From an uncultured Bacteroidales bacterium (GTDB lineage Bacteria > Bacteroidota > Bacteroidia > Bacteroidales > F082), in contig CAJOEP010000005.1 of assembly GCA_905233445.1 (NCBI GenBank), positions 1-64,000 on the forward strand: DNA of 64,000 bases. The letters are read 5' to 3'. Position 1 is the stretch's first letter; every line of letters starts with the position of its first letter. Positions 27,749 through 55,317 of the stretch are shown here, piece by piece. The translations under genes and the position numbers were made by a program. Under the pieces are notes generated by a model, which had not been told where the DNA came from, did no database searches, and was given only the letters and a program-made list of their open reading frames with translations.

Positions 27749-27788
27749 TTTAATATTTTATGCAAAAATACATTTTTTTTTAAAGCCC

Positions 27789-27855
27789 TTAGACATTAGA
27801 CCTTAGACTTTAGCAAATAACTGAAAAAAACTAAGGTCTAAGGTCTAATGTCTAA
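27789..27855. repeat. 20-bp perfect inverted repeat in the divergent xerD/mpl promoter region
   Basis: TTAGACATTAGACCTTAGAC (27789-27808) and its reverse complement (27836-27855). Confidence 0.85.
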
Positions 27856-27896
27856 AGTCTTTTTTGTAACTTTGCAGTGAAAAATATTGAAAATAT

Positions 27897-46285: not shown

Positions 46286-47074
46286 ATGAGCGAAGGATTA
46301 TATTCAATGGAAGCTAAGGATTTTGACAAAACCTTAGACTTGACGAAAATTAAGCCGTATGGCGACACGATGAACGATGGCAAGACCCAGCTGAGTTTCA
46401 CATTACCGGTGCCATGCGGCGCAGAAGCTGTTGAGGCAGCGAAACAACTCCTCAAAACTATGGGTTTTGAAAATCCTATCGTAGTGTATTACAAAGAGTT
46501 GACACCTGGATTCACCTTCTTTAACTGCTACGGAAGCTGCACACATACCGTCAACTACAGTACGATTTACGTTCCGAAGGTCGAGTCGAACACCATGGAT
46601 ATGTACGAGACCGACCAGTATATCAAGGAAAACATCGGACGTAAGATCGTCATCGTTGGCGCTTCAACAGGCACCGACGCTCACACCGTGGGCATCGACG
46701 CTATCATGAACATGAAAGGCTACGCGGGCCACTACGGACTTGAGCGATACGAGATGATAGAGGCTTACAACCTCGGTTCGCAGGTGCCAAATGAGGAATT
46801 CATTGCTAAAGGCGTTGAGCTGCATGCCGATGCATTACTAGTCTCGCAGACTGTTACCCAGAAAGACGTTCACATCCACAATATGACTAACTTCATCGAG
46901 TTGATGGAGGCTGAAGGCTTACGTGACAAGATGATCTGCTGCTGCGGTGGCGCCCGTATCACGCACGAATTGGCCAAGGAACTCGGTTTCGACGCTGGTT
47001 TCGGAATGAACACCTACGCTGATGACGTCGCTTCCTTTGTGGTTCAAGAAATGGTAAAACGTGGAATGAAATAG
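46286..47074 (+). CDS. kamE: Lysine 5,6-aminomutase beta (cobalamin-binding) subunit
   Basis: GLYSMEAKDFDKTLDLTKIKPYGDTMNDGKTQLSFTLP; GTDAHTVGIDAIMNMKGYAGHYGLERYEMIEAYNLGSQ (DxHxxG B12 motif). Confidence 0.92.
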   Translation: MSEGLYSMEAKDFDKTLDLTKIKPYGDTMNDGKTQLSFTLPVPCGAEAVEAAKQLLKTMGFENPIVVYYKELTPGFTFFNCYGSCTHTVNYSTIYVPKVESNTMDMYETDQYIKENIGRKIVIVGASTGTDAHTVGIDAIMNMKGYAGHYGLERYEMIEAYNLGSQVPNEEFIAKGVELHADALLVSQTVTQKDVHIHNMTNFIELMEAEGLRDKMICCCGGARITHELAKELGFDAGFGMNTYADDVASFVVQEMVKRGMK

Positions 47075-47102
47075 CCATTAGCTATTAGCCGTTAGCCATT
47101 AG
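47073..47102. repeat. 'TTAGCCATTAGC' stutter repeat
   Basis: AGCCATTAGCTATTAGCCGTTAGCCATTAG; related to 5627-5655. Confidence 0.7.
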
Positions 47103-47103
47103 T

Positions 47104-47143
47104 CGTCATTTCGACCGAAGCGAAGCGGAGTGGAGAAATCTCA
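47104..47143 (+). repeat. 40-bp dispersed repeat (copy 3)
   Basis: CGTCATTTCGACCGAAGCGAAGCGGAGTGGAGAAATCTCA; 37/40 identical to 15164-15203. Confidence 0.85.
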
Positions 47144-47185
47144 AATAAAAAAAAGAAACAAATTAACAATTAAATATTTCAGAAT

Positions 47186-47845
47186 ATGGATAAAAATGAA
47201 ATGAGAGAAGTTATCGCCAAAAGAGCAGCAAAAGAGCTGCATGACGGCGATGTAGTGAACCTTGGTATCGGTATCCCAACTTTGATTCCTAACTACCTTC
47301 CAAAGGGCGTGTCAGTGACACTGCAGACTGAGAACGGCGCTATGGGCATGGGACCAACTCCTGAAGAGGGCAAGGAAGACAAGAACCTCATCAACGCCGG
47401 CGGCGGTTTCATCACCTTGACACCAGGCGCTTGCACTTTCGATTCAGCAACATCATTCGCAATCATCCGCGGCGGTCACGTCAACGTGTCGTTCCTCGGC
47501 GCATTGCAGGTCGATGAGAAGGGCAACCTCGCCAACTGGATCATCCCGGGCAAGATGGCCCCAGGCATGGGTGGCGCTATGGACCTCGTGGTCGGTGCAA
47601 AACGCGTTATCCTCACCATGGAACACACACAGAAAGGTGCTCCGAAGATCTTGAAGGAATGCACACTGCCTCTCACAGCAGCAGGTCAGGTTAACATGAT
47701 CATCACTGAGATGGGTGTGATGGAAATCACAAAAGAGGGCATCGTCCTCACAGAGATCCATCCTGAATTCACAGTCGAACAGGTGCAGGAAGCAACAGAG
47801 GCTAAGCTCATCATCAGCCCGAACCTCAAATCAATGATTGATTAG
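47186..47845 (+). CDS. atoA: 3-oxoacid/butyrate-acetoacetate CoA-transferase subunit B
   Basis: RAAKELHDGDVVNLGIGIPTLIPNYLP, QTENGAMGMGP, GGAMDLVVGAKRVILTMEHTQKG. Confidence 0.9.
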   Translation: MDKNEMREVIAKRAAKELHDGDVVNLGIGIPTLIPNYLPKGVSVTLQTENGAMGMGPTPEEGKEDKNLINAGGGFITLTPGACTFDSATSFAIIRGGHVNVSFLGALQVDEKGNLANWIIPGKMAPGMGGAMDLVVGAKRVILTMEHTQKGAPKILKECTLPLTAAGQVNMIITEMGVMEITKEGIVLTEIHPEFTVEQVQEATEAKLIISPNLKSMID

Positions 47846-47914
47846 TTACCAGTTACCAGTTGACAGTTACCAGTTAACAAGAACTGCAAACTGCCAACTG
47901 GCAACTTCAAACTG
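47843..47914. repeat. 'AGTTACCAGTTGACAGTT' stutter/inverted repeat
   Basis: Shares CCAGTTACCAGTTGACAGTT (20 bp) with 54822-54841. Confidence 0.75.
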
Positions 47915-47920
47915 AATAAA

Positions 47921-48703
47921 ATGGAATACAAATTCTTAATAAGCGAAAACAGGGAAGACGGTATCTGCATCATGACGGTGTCGGCTCCTAAATCGTTGAA
48001 TGCTCTGAATTCGACGGTTTTGAAGGAAATCGACAACTTTGTGAGCAACCTCGACACGAAGAAGACTCGCGTTCTCATCATCACTGGTGACGGCGAGAAA
48101 TCGTTCGTGGCTGGCGCAGATATCTCCGAGATGGTGCATCTCTACGAGAAAGAAGGCTACGAGTTCAGTAAACTCGGCGCCATCGCTTTCCGTAAGATTG
48201 AGCTGCTCCCGATACCGGTCATCGCTGCTGTCAACGGATTCTGCCTCGGCGGTGGTTGCGAGCTCGCAATGGCTTGTGACTTCCGTTACGCCTCAAGCAA
48301 CGCCAAGTTCGGTCAGCCTGAGGTGGGACTGGGCATCACACCTGGTTTCAGCGGCACATACCGTCTGGCGAAACTCATCGGACAAGGCTATGCCAAGGAG
48401 ATGATATACACCGGCAAGGCTATCCGTGCAGACGAAGCATTGCGTATCGGCTTGGTGAACGCCGTTTACGAGCCGGAAGTTCTGATGGAAAAAGTCATCG
48501 AGACAGCCCAGAAGATCGTGGCTAACGCTCCTTTGGCTATCAAATATGCTAAGGAATGCATCAACGAGAGCTACGACATGGTTGCTGCCGACGCCATCGA
48601 ACTGGAAAACCGCAACTTCGGAAAATGCTTTGCAACAGAAGATCAGAAAGAAGGCATGACAGCGTTTCTTAATAAAGGAAAACCGAGCTTTCAGGGTCGC
48701 TAA
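47921..48703 (+). CDS. crt: Enoyl-CoA hydratase/crotonase
   Basis: AGADISEM, NGFCLGGGCELAMACDFRYAS, FGQPEVGLGITPGFSGT. Confidence 0.93.
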   Translation: MEYKFLISENREDGICIMTVSAPKSLNALNSTVLKEIDNFVSNLDTKKTRVLIITGDGEKSFVAGADISEMVHLYEKEGYEFSKLGAIAFRKIELLPIPVIAAVNGFCLGGGCELAMACDFRYASSNAKFGQPEVGLGITPGFSGTYRLAKLIGQGYAKEMIYTGKAIRADEALRIGLVNAVYEPEVLMEKVIETAQKIVANAPLAIKYAKECINESYDMVAADAIELENRNFGKCFATEDQKEGMTAFLNKGKPSFQGR

Positions 48704-48816
48704 CGGCGCACTACGCGCGCCTGTATTTAGCGCCCTGTGGGCGGAAATTTAACAAATTTGATTCAAATTAAACTATAAAAAGATTTGAAAAATTCGAATA
48801 AAATTTGAAAAATTTC

Positions 48817-48829
48817 TCGCCGAAGGCGA
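48817..48829. repeat. Mini-hairpin with GAA triloop
   Basis: TCGCC-GAA-GGCGA. Confidence 0.55.
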
Positions 48830-48870
48830 CAAAAAGAAAAAAGGAATAACAAATTATAAATAAAAGTAAC

Positions 48871-49707
48871 ATGAAAGTATTCGTTATCGGAACAGGAACC
48901 ATGGCAAAAGGCATCGTGAAGGCTTTCGCAGCTAAGATGCCAGTCGTCATGAAGAGCAGAACTCAGGCCAGCATTGACAAGGCTATGGGTTCAATCGCGA
49001 AAGGTTATGCCAAACTCGTTGAGAAAGGCAAGATGACTCAAGAGGGCGTTGACGCTCTTTTGAAGAACATCACAACCACCACCGACTACGCCACATTCAA
49101 AGACGCCGACCTCGTCATCGAGGCTGCATCAGAAGATATGGCTCTTAAGAAAGAGGTGTTCACTGAACTCGACAAGATCTGCAAGCCGGAAGCAATCTTC
49201 GCAACAAACTCATCATCATTGTCAATCACCGAAATTGCTGCCTGCACAACACGTCCTGCACAGTTCATCGGCATGCACTTCTTCAACCCGGCCGACAGAA
49301 TGGCATTGGTGGAAGTCATCAAGGGACAGCTCACAAGCGACGAAGTGACAAAATGCATTGTTGACCTCTCGACATCAATCGGCAAACAGCCGGTCGAGGT
49401 GAAAGAAGCCCCAGGTTTCGTCGTCAACCGCATCCTCATCCCAATGATCAACGAGGCTGTCGGTATCTTGGCCGACGGTATCGCATCAGCAGAGGACATC
49501 GACAAGTGCATGATGCTTGGCGCCAACCATCCAATGGGACCTCTCGCATTGGCCGACCTCATCGGAAACGATGTCAACCTCGCCATCATGGAGGTGCTTT
49601 ACAACGAATTCGGTGATCCTAAGTACCGTCCACATCCACTTTTGAGAAAGATGGTGCGCGCCGGATTGCTCGGTAGAAAAACTGGAGAAGGATTTTATAA
49701 GTATTAA
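48871..49707 (+). CDS. hbd: 3-hydroxybutyryl-CoA dehydrogenase
   Basis: [59 protein letters not shown]. Confidence 0.93.
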
Positions 49708-49712
49708 ATAAC

Positions 49713-49737
49713 AGAAGTAAGAAGCAAGAAGTAAGAA
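49713..49737. repeat. Left 25-bp inverted repeat flanking the four-helix-bundle ORF
   Basis: AGAAGTAAGAAGCAAGAAGTAAGAA; 24/25 match to the reverse complement of 50144-50168. Confidence 0.85.
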
Positions 49738-49764
49738 GTAAGAAGAGAATTTTAGAAGATTAGA

Positions 49765-50130
49765 ATGGCGACTAAATCATATAAGGAGTTAATTGTCTGG
49801 CAGAAGGCACATTCTTTTGTCTTGACAGTTTATTCATTATCTGAAAAGTTTCCAAAAAGCGAGTTATACGGACTGACATCTCAATTCAGAAGAGCTGCTG
49901 TTTCGATAGCTGCTAATATCGCTGAAGGTTATGTTAAAAAATCACCATCAGATAAAATAAGATTCTTTAATATCTCTCAAGGATCATTGGAAGAATGTAG
50001 TTATTATATAGTTTTATCGAAAGATTTGAACTATATAACAGAGGAACAATCCGTGACTCTTGATAAATTATTAGGAGAAACAGAAAGAATTCTGAATACC
50101 TATATTACAGAAATCCAATCATCAATTTAA
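49765..50130 (+). CDS. Four-helix-bundle protein (23S rRNA intervening-sequence/S23 family)
   Basis: KSYKELIVWQKAHSFVLTVYSLSEKFPKSELYGLTSQFRRAAVSIAANIAEGYVKKS..FFNISQGSLEECSYYI. Confidence 0.92.
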   Translation: MATKSYKELIVWQKAHSFVLTVYSLSEKFPKSELYGLTSQFRRAAVSIAANIAEGYVKKSPSDKIRFFNISQGSLEECSYYIVLSKDLNYITEEQSVTLDKLLGETERILNTYITEIQSSI

Positions 50131-50143
50131 TCGTTAACAAATA

Positions 50144-50168
50144 TTCTTACTTCTTGCTTCTAACTTCT
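50144..50168. repeat. Right 25-bp inverted repeat flanking the four-helix-bundle ORF
   Basis: TTCTTACTTCTTGCTTCTAACTTCT; reverse complement of 49713-49737 with one mismatch. Confidence 0.85.
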
Positions 50169-50187
50169 AAATTCTAAATTAATTGAA

Positions 50188-51327
50188 ATGGATTTTAGCT
50201 ATTCAAAGACAGAAGAATTGTTCCTGCAGATGATCAGATCGTTTGCAGAGAACGAGGTCAAGCCTTTGGCAGCCGAAGTTGACGAGACAGAACGTTTCCC
50301 TATGGAGACCGTCAAGAAGATGGCGAAATTAGGTTTGATGGGCATCCCGGTACCAAGACAGTACGGCGGAGCCGGCGGATCAGTGCAGATGTACATCATG
50401 GCTGTTGAGGAGCTCTCAAGAGTGTGCGCCACTACAGGCGTTATCCTTTCAGCCCACACATCATTGTGCATGGCACCTATCCTCGAAAACGGAACAGAGG
50501 AACAGAAGATGAAATATTTGCCGAAGCTCGCATCAGGCGAATGGATCGGCGCTTTCGGTCTTACCGAGCCTAACGCCGGTACCGACGCTGCCATGCAGCA
50601 GACAATGGCTGTGGACGCTGGCGACAAATACATCCTCAACGGTTCGAAGATTTTCATCACCAACGCAGCATACGCCGACGTATTCATCGTCATGGCAATG
50701 ACCGACAAGAGCAAAGGCACCAAGGGCATCTCGGCATTCATAGTTGAGAAAGGCTTCAAGGGCTTCAGCATCGGTAAGAAAGAGTTGAAGATGGGTATCC
50801 GCGGCAGCGCGACCTGCGAGTTGATTTTCGAAAACTGCGAAGTGCCGAAGGAAAACCTCCTCGGACCTCTCGGAAAAGGCTTCAACATCGCTATGAAGAC
50901 CCTCGACGGTGGCCGTATCGGTATTGCTTCACAGGCTCTCGGCATCGCTCAAGGCGCTATGGATGAGACAGTGAAATACACCAAGGAACGTAAGCAGTTC
51001 GGCAAGGCTATCGCCCAGTTCCAGAACACCCAGTTCCAGATGGCCGACCTCAAGACAAAGGTCGAGGCAGCCCGTTTGCTCGTCAGAAGTGCGGCATGGA
51101 AGAAAGACAAAGGTCTCCCATACTCGGCAGATGCAGCAATGGCAAAACTCTTCGCAGCTGAGACAGCAATGGAAGTGACTACAAAGGCAGTCCAGTTCCA
51201 CGGCGGCTACGGCTACACACGTGAATATCCGGTCGAACGCATGATGCGCGACGCCAAGATTACCGAGATCTACGAAGGTACATCAGAGGTTCAGAGAATG
51301 GTTATCGCTGGTCATTTATTTAAATAG
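50188..51327 (+). CDS. bcd: Acyl-CoA (butyryl-CoA) dehydrogenase
   Basis: FGLTEPNAGTDAAMQQT, RKQFGKAIAQFQNTQFQMADL, GGYGYTREYPVERMMRDAKITEIYEGTSEVQRMVI. Confidence 0.94.
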   Translation: MDFSYSKTEELFLQMIRSFAENEVKPLAAEVDETERFPMETVKKMAKLGLMGIPVPRQYGGAGGSVQMYIMAVEELSRVCATTGVILSAHTSLCMAPILENGTEEQKMKYLPKLASGEWIGAFGLTEPNAGTDAAMQQTMAVDAGDKYILNGSKIFITNAAYADVFIVMAMTDKSKGTKGISAFIVEKGFKGFSIGKKELKMGIRGSATCELIFENCEVPKENLLGPLGKGFNIAMKTLDGGRIGIASQALGIAQGAMDETVKYTKERKQFGKAIAQFQNTQFQMADLKTKVEAARLLVRSAAWKKDKGLPYSADAAMAKLFAAETAMEVTTKAVQFHGGYGYTREYPVERMMRDAKITEIYEGTSEVQRMVIAGHLFK

Positions 51328-51339
51328 GAGGGAAGGATT

Positions 51340-52122
51340 ATGAATATTATAGTTTGTATTAAGCAAGTACCTGATACTACCGAAATCAAAATCGATCCGG
51401 TAAAGAACACCCTTATCCGTGAAGGCGTTCCGAGCATCATGAACCCGGACGACAAGGGCGGTCTCGAACTCGCACTCCAGATGAAAGACAAATACGGCGC
51501 TAACGTCACCGTTATCACAATGGGACCTCCACAAGCCGACCTCATCCTGAGAGAAGCTTTCGCTATGGGCGTTGACAGAGCTATCTTATTGAGCGACAGA
51601 AAGTTCGCTGGTGCAGATACTCTTGCAACATCATACGCATTAGCAGGCGCCATCAAGACTTTGGACTATGACCTCATCATCGCCGGCCGTCAGGCTATCG
51701 ACGGTGACACTGCACAGGTCGGTCCTGAGATGGCTGAACACCTCGGATTACCACAGGTTTCATACGTCATCGACGCTGAACGCAAGGAAAACGGCAACTT
51801 CATCGTGAAGAAAGAAAACGAAGACAGCGTGCAGACTCTCGAAGTCGAAGGCAAGTGCGTCCTCACAGTGTTGGCATCAGCATTCGAGGCTCGTTACATG
51901 ACAGTAGCCGGCATCGTTGACGCTTACAATAAAGAAGTTGAAGTTTGGGGCGCCGACAAACTCGATGTCGACGAGAACAAACTTGGTCTGAAAGGCTCAC
52001 CAACAAAGGTGTGGCAGTCATTCCCAAAACAGCTCAAGGCTCCGGGCGAAGTGTTCGAAGTCAGCGAAGAAGAAGCTGTGGAAATCATCGTTAAGAAACT
52101 TAAAGAAAAACATTTAATCTAA
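51340..52122 (+). CDS. etfB: Electron transfer flavoprotein beta subunit
   Basis: NIIVCIKQVPDTTEIKIDPVKNTLIREGVPSIMNPDD, AGRQAIDGDTAQVGPEMAEHL. Confidence 0.95.
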   Translation: MNIIVCIKQVPDTTEIKIDPVKNTLIREGVPSIMNPDDKGGLELALQMKDKYGANVTVITMGPPQADLILREAFAMGVDRAILLSDRKFAGADTLATSYALAGAIKTLDYDLIIAGRQAIDGDTAQVGPEMAEHLGLPQVSYVIDAERKENGNFIVKKENEDSVQTLEVEGKCVLTVLASAFEARYMTVAGIVDAYNKEVEVWGADKLDVDENKLGLKGSPTKVWQSFPKQLKAPGEVFEVSEEEAVEIIVKKLKEKHLI

Positions 52123-52132
52123 AAGTAAAGCC

Positions 52133-53152
52133 ATGGATATCAAAGATTACAAAAACGTTTATGTGTTCGCAGAACAGCGCGGAGGTATGATTCAATCCGT
52201 AGCTTACGAACTTTTAGGTAAGGCTCGCGACTTGGCCGACGCTCTCGGCGAGAAAGTCGTGGCAATGTTACTCGGTCATAATGTCAAAGACCAGGCTCAA
52301 AGCCTCATCGAGATGGGTGCTGACGAAGTGCTCGTCGCCGACTGCCCTGAGCTCAAGGATTACTTGACAGAGCAGTACTCACAGGTTGTGTATCAGATGA
52401 TTACAGCCGGCTGCCCAAGCATCGTGCTTTACGGCGCAACAACCATCGGCCGTGACCTCGCACCACGTATCGCTTCACGTTTGAAGACCGGTCTGACAGC
52501 AGACTGCACCAAGCTTGAAATCGGTATCGTCGAGGAGACTGGCGAGAAACAGTTCCGCTCGACACGTCCAGCTTTCGGCGGCAACCTGATGGCTACCATT
52601 CTTTGCCCTAACACACGTCCTCAGATGTCGACAGTGCGTCCTGGCGTGATGCAGAAACGCGTCCGTGAGGCTGGCAGAAAAGGCACTATCACAATGTTTG
52701 CTCCTAAATTCGACACAAGCAAGTTCAAAGTGAAAGTCATCGAGACCAAGATGAACTGCAAGTGCGCTGACGACATCGCCGATGCCAAGATTTTGGTGTC
52801 AGGAGGCCGTGGCGTCCACGACAAGGAAGGCTTCAACAAGCTTCAGGCTTTGGCCGACGTTCTTGGCGGCATGGTGTCGTCATCACGCGCCATGGTTGAC
52901 GCAGGCATCATGGATCACTGCTTCCAGGTGGGTCAGACAGGTAAGACCGTCCGCCCGAACCTTTACATGGCATGCGGTATCTCAGGCGCCATCCAGCACC
53001 TCGCAGGTATGGAGGAGTCAGACTTCATCATCGCCATCAACAAGGACAAATATGCTCCTATTTTCAGCGCAGCTGACCTCGGCATCGTCGGCGACCTGCA
53101 CAAGATTGTCCCGATGTTGACAGAGAGACTGAAGAAAGATGTGGAAAAATAA
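52133..53152 (+). CDS. etfA: Electron transfer flavoprotein alpha subunit
   Basis: [57 protein letters not shown]. Confidence 0.95.
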
Positions 53153-53249: not shown

Positions 53250-53307
53250 TTTAAATAATTTTTTCTTAAATCATTTGCACAATCCAAAAAATTCGTATCT
53301 TTGCAGC

Positions 53308-53403
53308 GGGTAAGTCTTATACGACCAGCTCCTGTCGAACTCCCCCAGGGCCGGAAGGCAGCAAGGGTAGATGGTAGAGCGGTGCGATATAAGTAGCTTA
53401 CCC
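53308..53403 (+). ncRNA. ffs: Bacterial small SRP RNA (4.5S)
   Basis: GGGTAAG...CTTACCC terminal stem; conserved CCAGGGCCGGAAGGCAGCAAGGG apical domain; TATCTTTG box upstream and T tract downstream. Confidence 0.93.
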
Positions 53404-53416
53404 TTTTTTGTCTGAA

Positions 53417-54821: not shown

Positions 54822-54905
54822 CCAGTTACCAGTTGACAGTTGGCAGTTTTTAGTAGTTTAACTGGAAACTGGTAACTGCTAACTGCAAATTGCCAACTGC
54901 AAACT
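54821..54905. repeat. 'CCAGTTACCAGTTGACAGTT' stutter/inverted repeat between convergent genes
   Basis: ACCAGTTACCAGTTGACAGTTGGCAGTT ... AACTGGAAACTGGTAACTGCTAACTGC; shares 20 bp with 47849-47868. Confidence 0.8.
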
Positions 54906-54906
54906 T

Positions 54907-55317
54907 TTAATATCTGTCATACGGGTCATCATACGGCTCGTCGAAGCTTTCATCTTCGTAAAATTCTTCCTCATCCTCGCCAAAGATGTCTTCCTCGTCC
55001 TCAGCAAACATGTTTTCGCCTTCTTCCCAGTCGAAGTCCTCTTCAAGCTTGCTCTCGTCAAACTCGTCAATGTCGTTCATCTCATTCATGAAGTCGCGCA
55101 ACTCCTCGTCACTCATCTCATCGAGGTTGGCTGTCAATAACTTGTTGTCGCGTGACGATGCCCTTAATTCCTTCAAAACCTCTGGTGAAATATAAAAATC
55201 ATCAATGTTATCCTGACAATATTTTATATATTTAGGGTCTTTTTCAAATACCTCAGCCAAAGTTTCACCCTCATATTTACCAAAAGTGAAAATAGAGTCA
55301 ATGTCGTAAAATTTCAT
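54907..55317 (-). CDS. Acidic-tail protein with ExoX C-terminal-like 'FGKYEGETLAEV' motif
   Basis: N-terminus FTFGKYEGETLAEVFEKDPKYIKYC; about 60-residue D/E-rich C-terminal tail. Confidence 0.65.
   Translation of the reverse strand: MKFYDIDSIFTFGKYEGETLAEVFEKDPKYIKYCQDNIDDFYISPEVLKELRASSRDNKLLTANLDEMSDEELRDFMNEMNDIDEFDESKLEEDFDWEEGENMFAEDEEDIFGEDEEEFYEDESFDEPYDDPYDRY

Follow-up and report, generated by a model that had tools for sequence, protein, structure and literature searches.

In a REPtron, REP repeats flank a RAYT (TnpAREP) gene and are also scattered over the genome, frequently in inverted pairs, while transposition of the gene as a unit seems not to occur (PMC6006769). The intervening sequence (IVS) of Coxiella ends in inverted repeats of 28 bp that RNase III cuts (PMC4990558). 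Bacteria commonly contain heptanucleotide repeats, and arrays of the heptamer TAACTGA occur in Beggiatoaceae, Cyanobacteria, and some Bacteroidetes (PMC4679880). Here we compare these systems with a locus in a 64,000-nt window (the whole stretch of DNA that was analysed) from an uncultured Bacteroidales bacterium. Like a REPtron, the locus consists of a small gene with flanking repeats that recur elsewhere in the genome, in many cases as inverted pairs, and the gene seems not to move as a unit. Unlike a REPtron, it encodes a four-helix S23 protein (PF05635) instead of a Y1 HUH nuclease, and its repeats are tandem arrays of 7-bp units whose sequence varies freely. With the 23S rRNA IVS of Coxiella, the locus shares the S23 protein family and a pair of terminal inverted repeats, but it lies between the protein genes hbd and bcd rather than inside a 23S rRNA gene, and its arms are tandem heptads that lack the wobble signature of RNA pairing. 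The TAACTGA arrays are likewise intergenic and tandem with a 7-bp period, whereas they have one fixed sequence, are nearly always direct, and are described in a main text that does not mention S23.

The S23 gene (49765-50130, + strand, 121 aa) is located in a butyrate operon between hbd (48871-49707, +) and bcd (50188-51327, +), which form the left and right flanks of a variable slot. An earlier note on this DNA had placed the ORF between these two genes in the same orientation, bounded by 25-bp inverted repeats and more AT-rich than its neighbours. The ORF coordinates bear out the co-directional order, the arms at 49713-49737 and 50144-50168 are 96% complementary (84% when extended to 32 nt), and the GC content is 31% in a 500-bp interval over the ORF compared with approximately 50% in hbd and bcd. 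The 25-bp inverted repeat belongs to two longer tandem 7-bp arrays, of which it is the conspicuous portion. The 5′ array (49713-49745, +) contains 4.7 copies of AGAAGTA and begins 6 bp past the hbd stop codon, and the 3′ array (50144-50180, − strand) has the same unit in inverted orientation, with 4.9 copies over 50144-50177, and stops 7 bp short of the bcd start. The AGAAGTA-type motif has nine matches in the window, where 0.21 would be expected.

The predicted protein is a member of PF05635 (23S_rRNA_IVP), with an E-value of 4.8e-38 and a score of 130.1 bits against a curated cut-off of 33.8, and it also matches TIGR02436. It has a fold related to that of Avd, the accessory protein of diversity-generating retroelements (DGRs), with weak matches to bAvd (28.9 bits, below the cut-off of 40) and DivGenRetAVD (32.7 bits, below the cut-off of 80); these profile matches agree with the family link to 23S IVS proteins and Avd that had been suggested for the ORF. 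The nearest relatives of known structure, 2gsc and 2rld, both have five chains per entry, which fits the pentameric assembly of the Avd family. Comparison with orthologues revealed strong purifying selection (omega 0.01-0.19). To our knowledge, the S23 family was first encountered decades ago in rRNA insertions and still has no agreed function, and we know of no nuclease or transposase activity for it. In contrast to a DGR, no reverse transcriptase (RT) was found among the ORFs neighbouring the S23 gene in the window, and neither an RT nor a Y1 transposase was detected in several near-complete S23-bearing relatives, such as G052 and G012. Because these genomes carry S23 without either enzyme being detected, neither appears to be required, and an RT or Y1 transposase as obligatory mover is ruled out. 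A 245-aa protein at L164:8011-8748, which combines a partial S23-like region with a Cys-rich C-terminal part, is probably a four-helix-bundle-suffix protein of a different family.

The sample of S23 genes comprised the same genus and named genomes from Bacteroidota, Patescibacteria, Acidobacteria, and others. Framing was scored by comparing the 130 bp upstream of each gene with the reverse complement of the 130 bp downstream, and the controls were 241 non-S23 genes with intergenic DNA to either side. Inverted arrays frame 84% of the 43 S23 genes of the genus and 4.6% of the controls; a separate phylum sample gave 33% and 0.7%, respectively. When arms were swapped between loci, the match rate dropped from 61% to 3.6% in the genus and from 40% to 1.6% among the named loci, and each arm matches its own partner only, not the arms of other loci. 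The arms are inverted in 107 cases and direct in 19, with a median length of 33-34 nt. In most periodic arms the unit length is 7 (8, 14), in the genus as in the phylum; 7 dominates, 8 occurs in some lineages, and 10 occurs in a few Bacteroides/Phocaeicola loci. The Phocaeicola S23 genes L093 and L095, for instance, have 10-bp units of the AAGGAGTTAG type. The unit sequence varies freely among species and genes while its length (7, sometimes 8) remains constant. The expectation that the same inverted repeats recur at other S23 genes and are rarer at unrelated genes therefore holds for the framing but not for the unit sequence, which differs from locus to locus. S23-specific framing by inverted 7-bp arrays thus extends across Bacteroidota and beyond. 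We found no prior report of this pairing in the open-access literature, and the partnership is apparently undescribed.

The same kind of array also occurs without a gene. A scan covering 468 kb of the source genome (88% complete) yielded 35 period-7 arrays, 9 period-9 arrays, and 0-4 arrays for each other period from 5 to 13; the count at period 14 was largely the period-7 arrays again. Many of these arrays are short-loop hairpins starting at the upstream gene's stop codon; where strong inverted pairs enclose a loop of gene size (405 and 423 nt), that loop contains S23. In the window, solo inverted 7-bp hairpins are found at 27782-27862 (TTAGACC family, with a gene-free loop), 47844-47914 (AGTTACC/AACTGCA), and 54826-54910 (AGTTGGC/AACTGCC). 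A solo TAGCCAT array at 47070-47104 (+) has the motif of the arms of another S23 gene of this genome, on contig C36. Half (50%) of the distinct S23 arm motifs are matched exactly among the solo arrays, compared with 6% for shuffled motifs. For the solo families AACTGGT and AAGGTCT, no S23 gene with the cognate motif was found among the matches in the 88% complete source genome. Across 80 Bacteroidota genomes, the number of 7-bp TAG/GAT arrays rises with the number of S23 genes (rho 0.62; 0.71 for family means; partial correlation 0.50 with genome size and GxxExxY genes controlled), a correlational result in which phylogeny is only partly controlled. Among the genomes lacking S23, 18 of 19 have four or fewer pattern matches. 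Among the array places and S23 genes listed for five other genomes, a single array was noted next to an S23 gene, which is an indication at most.

Few other small genes are framed in this way, and most of them encode GxxExxY nucleases (PF13366), with one GIY-YIG protein besides. In the genus, 21 of 28 GxxExxY loci are framed by inverted units that are mostly 9 bp long (CACRGATTT type), against 15% in the swap null, and 46% of the loci in the phylum are framed compared with 1.9% of controls. Examples are L171:14187-14570, L172:13316-13765, L196:15928-16299, and L276-L305. GxxExxY genes with units of about 9 bp are a parallel to S23 genes with 7-bp units. The small GIY-YIG gene (L174:17277-17591) lies between GTCATTTCGAC and GGAGAAATCTC repeats. 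Y1 transposase genes in the sample have palindromic repeats at 7 of 11 loci, resembling the known REPtron layout (PMC6006769).

The arrangement, its specificity for S23, its spread, the repeat families common to gene-flanking and solo arrays, and the co-occurrence at the genome level are direct observations. As an explanation, we give an about even chance to the locus being one copy of a widespread module that pairs S23, as trans-acting partner, with the 7-bp arrays, in the manner of a REPtron. Such a module would consist of an S23 gene bracketed by inverted 7-bp arrays, with the same repeat families dispersed gene-free in the same genome. The S23 protein would bind the arrays in trans and may promote or maintain them, possibly including their copying, by analogy with the relation of REP-associated transposases to REP elements. 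The gene-bearing copy would mostly be inherited in place and be gained or lost at intergenic slots such as hbd-bcd. As the protein is conserved among orthologues but the motif is not, recognition by S23 would need to rely on spacing or a loose core. The lack of a known nuclease or transposase activity in S23 and the solo families without a cognate S23 gene weigh against the partner model.

Alternatively, a process independent of S23 could spread the 7-bp arrays, with S23 merely persisting best between them. Gene-free inverted hairpins of many motifs, mostly with 7- or 8-bp units, fill the same hbd-bcd gap in relatives, and the source genome has arrays whose motifs lack a cognate S23; both are what this passive role would predict. 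Against it stand the different unit lengths at S23 genes (7/8 bp) and GxxExxY genes (mostly about 9 bp), the lack of any link between the counts of GxxExxY genes and of 7-bp arrays after control for S23 (partial correlation 0.01), and the scarcity of matches in 18 of the 19 genomes without S23. We consider a passive role for S23 unlikely.

It had also been suggested that the locus is a stem-closed RNA insert, with arms that pair in the transcript and an insert removed by RNase III as in the 23S rRNA IVS. The common protein family and the RNase III-cut 28-bp inverted repeats of the Coxiella IVS (PMC4990558) are in line with this suggestion, and the transcript of the locus does fold with a closing stem (z -6.8). 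Selection for pairing of the sense RNA would leave more mismatches that give G-U pairs than A-C mismatches. No such bias was observed in the S23 arms (113 wobble-type and 123 non-wobble transitions at 95 loci) or in the solo hairpins (21 and 27), and the same test was negative for the GxxExxY repeats. If the arms were mirror copies, shuffling their units would lower the match between them; at 29 loci the match was 20.9 for the actual order and 20.8 after shuffling, so no mirrored unit order was detected. This unit-shuffle test speaks against mirror copies of one stem, contrary to the appearance of the arms in the window. As read from the arms, the constraint is that both sides carry one 7-bp family, in opposite orientations, which looks strand-symmetric and DNA-like. 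The stem therefore stands as a predicted fold while its selection is unsupported, and with the locus outside rRNA, we regard an IVS-like cassette as improbable. Since the transcript can fold the closing stem, RNase III cleavage may occur as a by-product rather than a selected function.

The same note had proposed a small mobile element of about 456 bp, in which S23 and both arrays would transpose together as an autonomous unit. This proposal is weakly supported, and we think it rather improbable. Its first part, variable presence among relatives, was observed: besides the gene-free hairpins, the hbd-bcd gap can be empty (5-39 bp), including gaps of 10-39 bp in relatives of the same genus, or hold S23 with AGAAGTA, AGACAGA, or AGAAGTTA arms. 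G019, with S23 in the gap, is sister to G079, in which it is empty. Similarly, of the other relatives examined, G081 alone has S23 at the site of the gene on contig C2. At a third slot, that of L198 (L364-L383), G038 carries S23 and G020 a GxxExxY gene, G091 has a short gap, and further hairpin families occur elsewhere. S23 pairs of 87-89% identity are found at non-homologous sites, 73 of 143 pairs of 70-80% identity have no common flank, and a short direct repeat, ATTAA, lies on both sides of several hbd-bcd inserts. Against transposition as a unit, a transposase domain is absent, no duplication is apparent at a second slot, and all 42 S23 pairs of at least 90% identity share both flanks (37) or one (5), with none lacking a homologous flank. 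The gene is therefore inherited in place over the short term and relocates rarely. Between the source genome (G000) and G019, the dS of S23 is 0.75, close to the values for genes outside the operon (0.9-2.0; butyrate genes, 0.19-0.54), and for this reason vertical presence with losses fits as well, and the divergence is not proof of a recent independent gain. Finally, chance slippage microsatellites near a gene, conceivable given how common bacterial heptanucleotide repeats are (PMC4679880), are very unlikely, since the framing frequencies and swap nulls exclude chance.

If S23 is indeed the partner of the 7-bp arrays, the family gains a testable ligand and role, part of the heptanucleotide arrays in bacterial intergenic DNA would be explained, and the REPtron idea would extend to proteins without a transposase domain. 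A more specific version, which we find quite doubtful, is that S23 rings read about five consecutive 7-base units with spacing instead of sequence as the code and drive array copying, and that GxxExxY-type families act in parallel, together making up a broad class of genes that propagate repeats without being known transposases.

The butyrate-operon genes (46286-53152 in the window) are themselves less diverged between G000 and G019 than the neighbouring genes, in the dS ranges given above, which suggests that the operon was transferred or is subject to codon bias. Downstream of etfA, a Bacteroidales small SRP RNA (RF04183) is located at 53301-53407.
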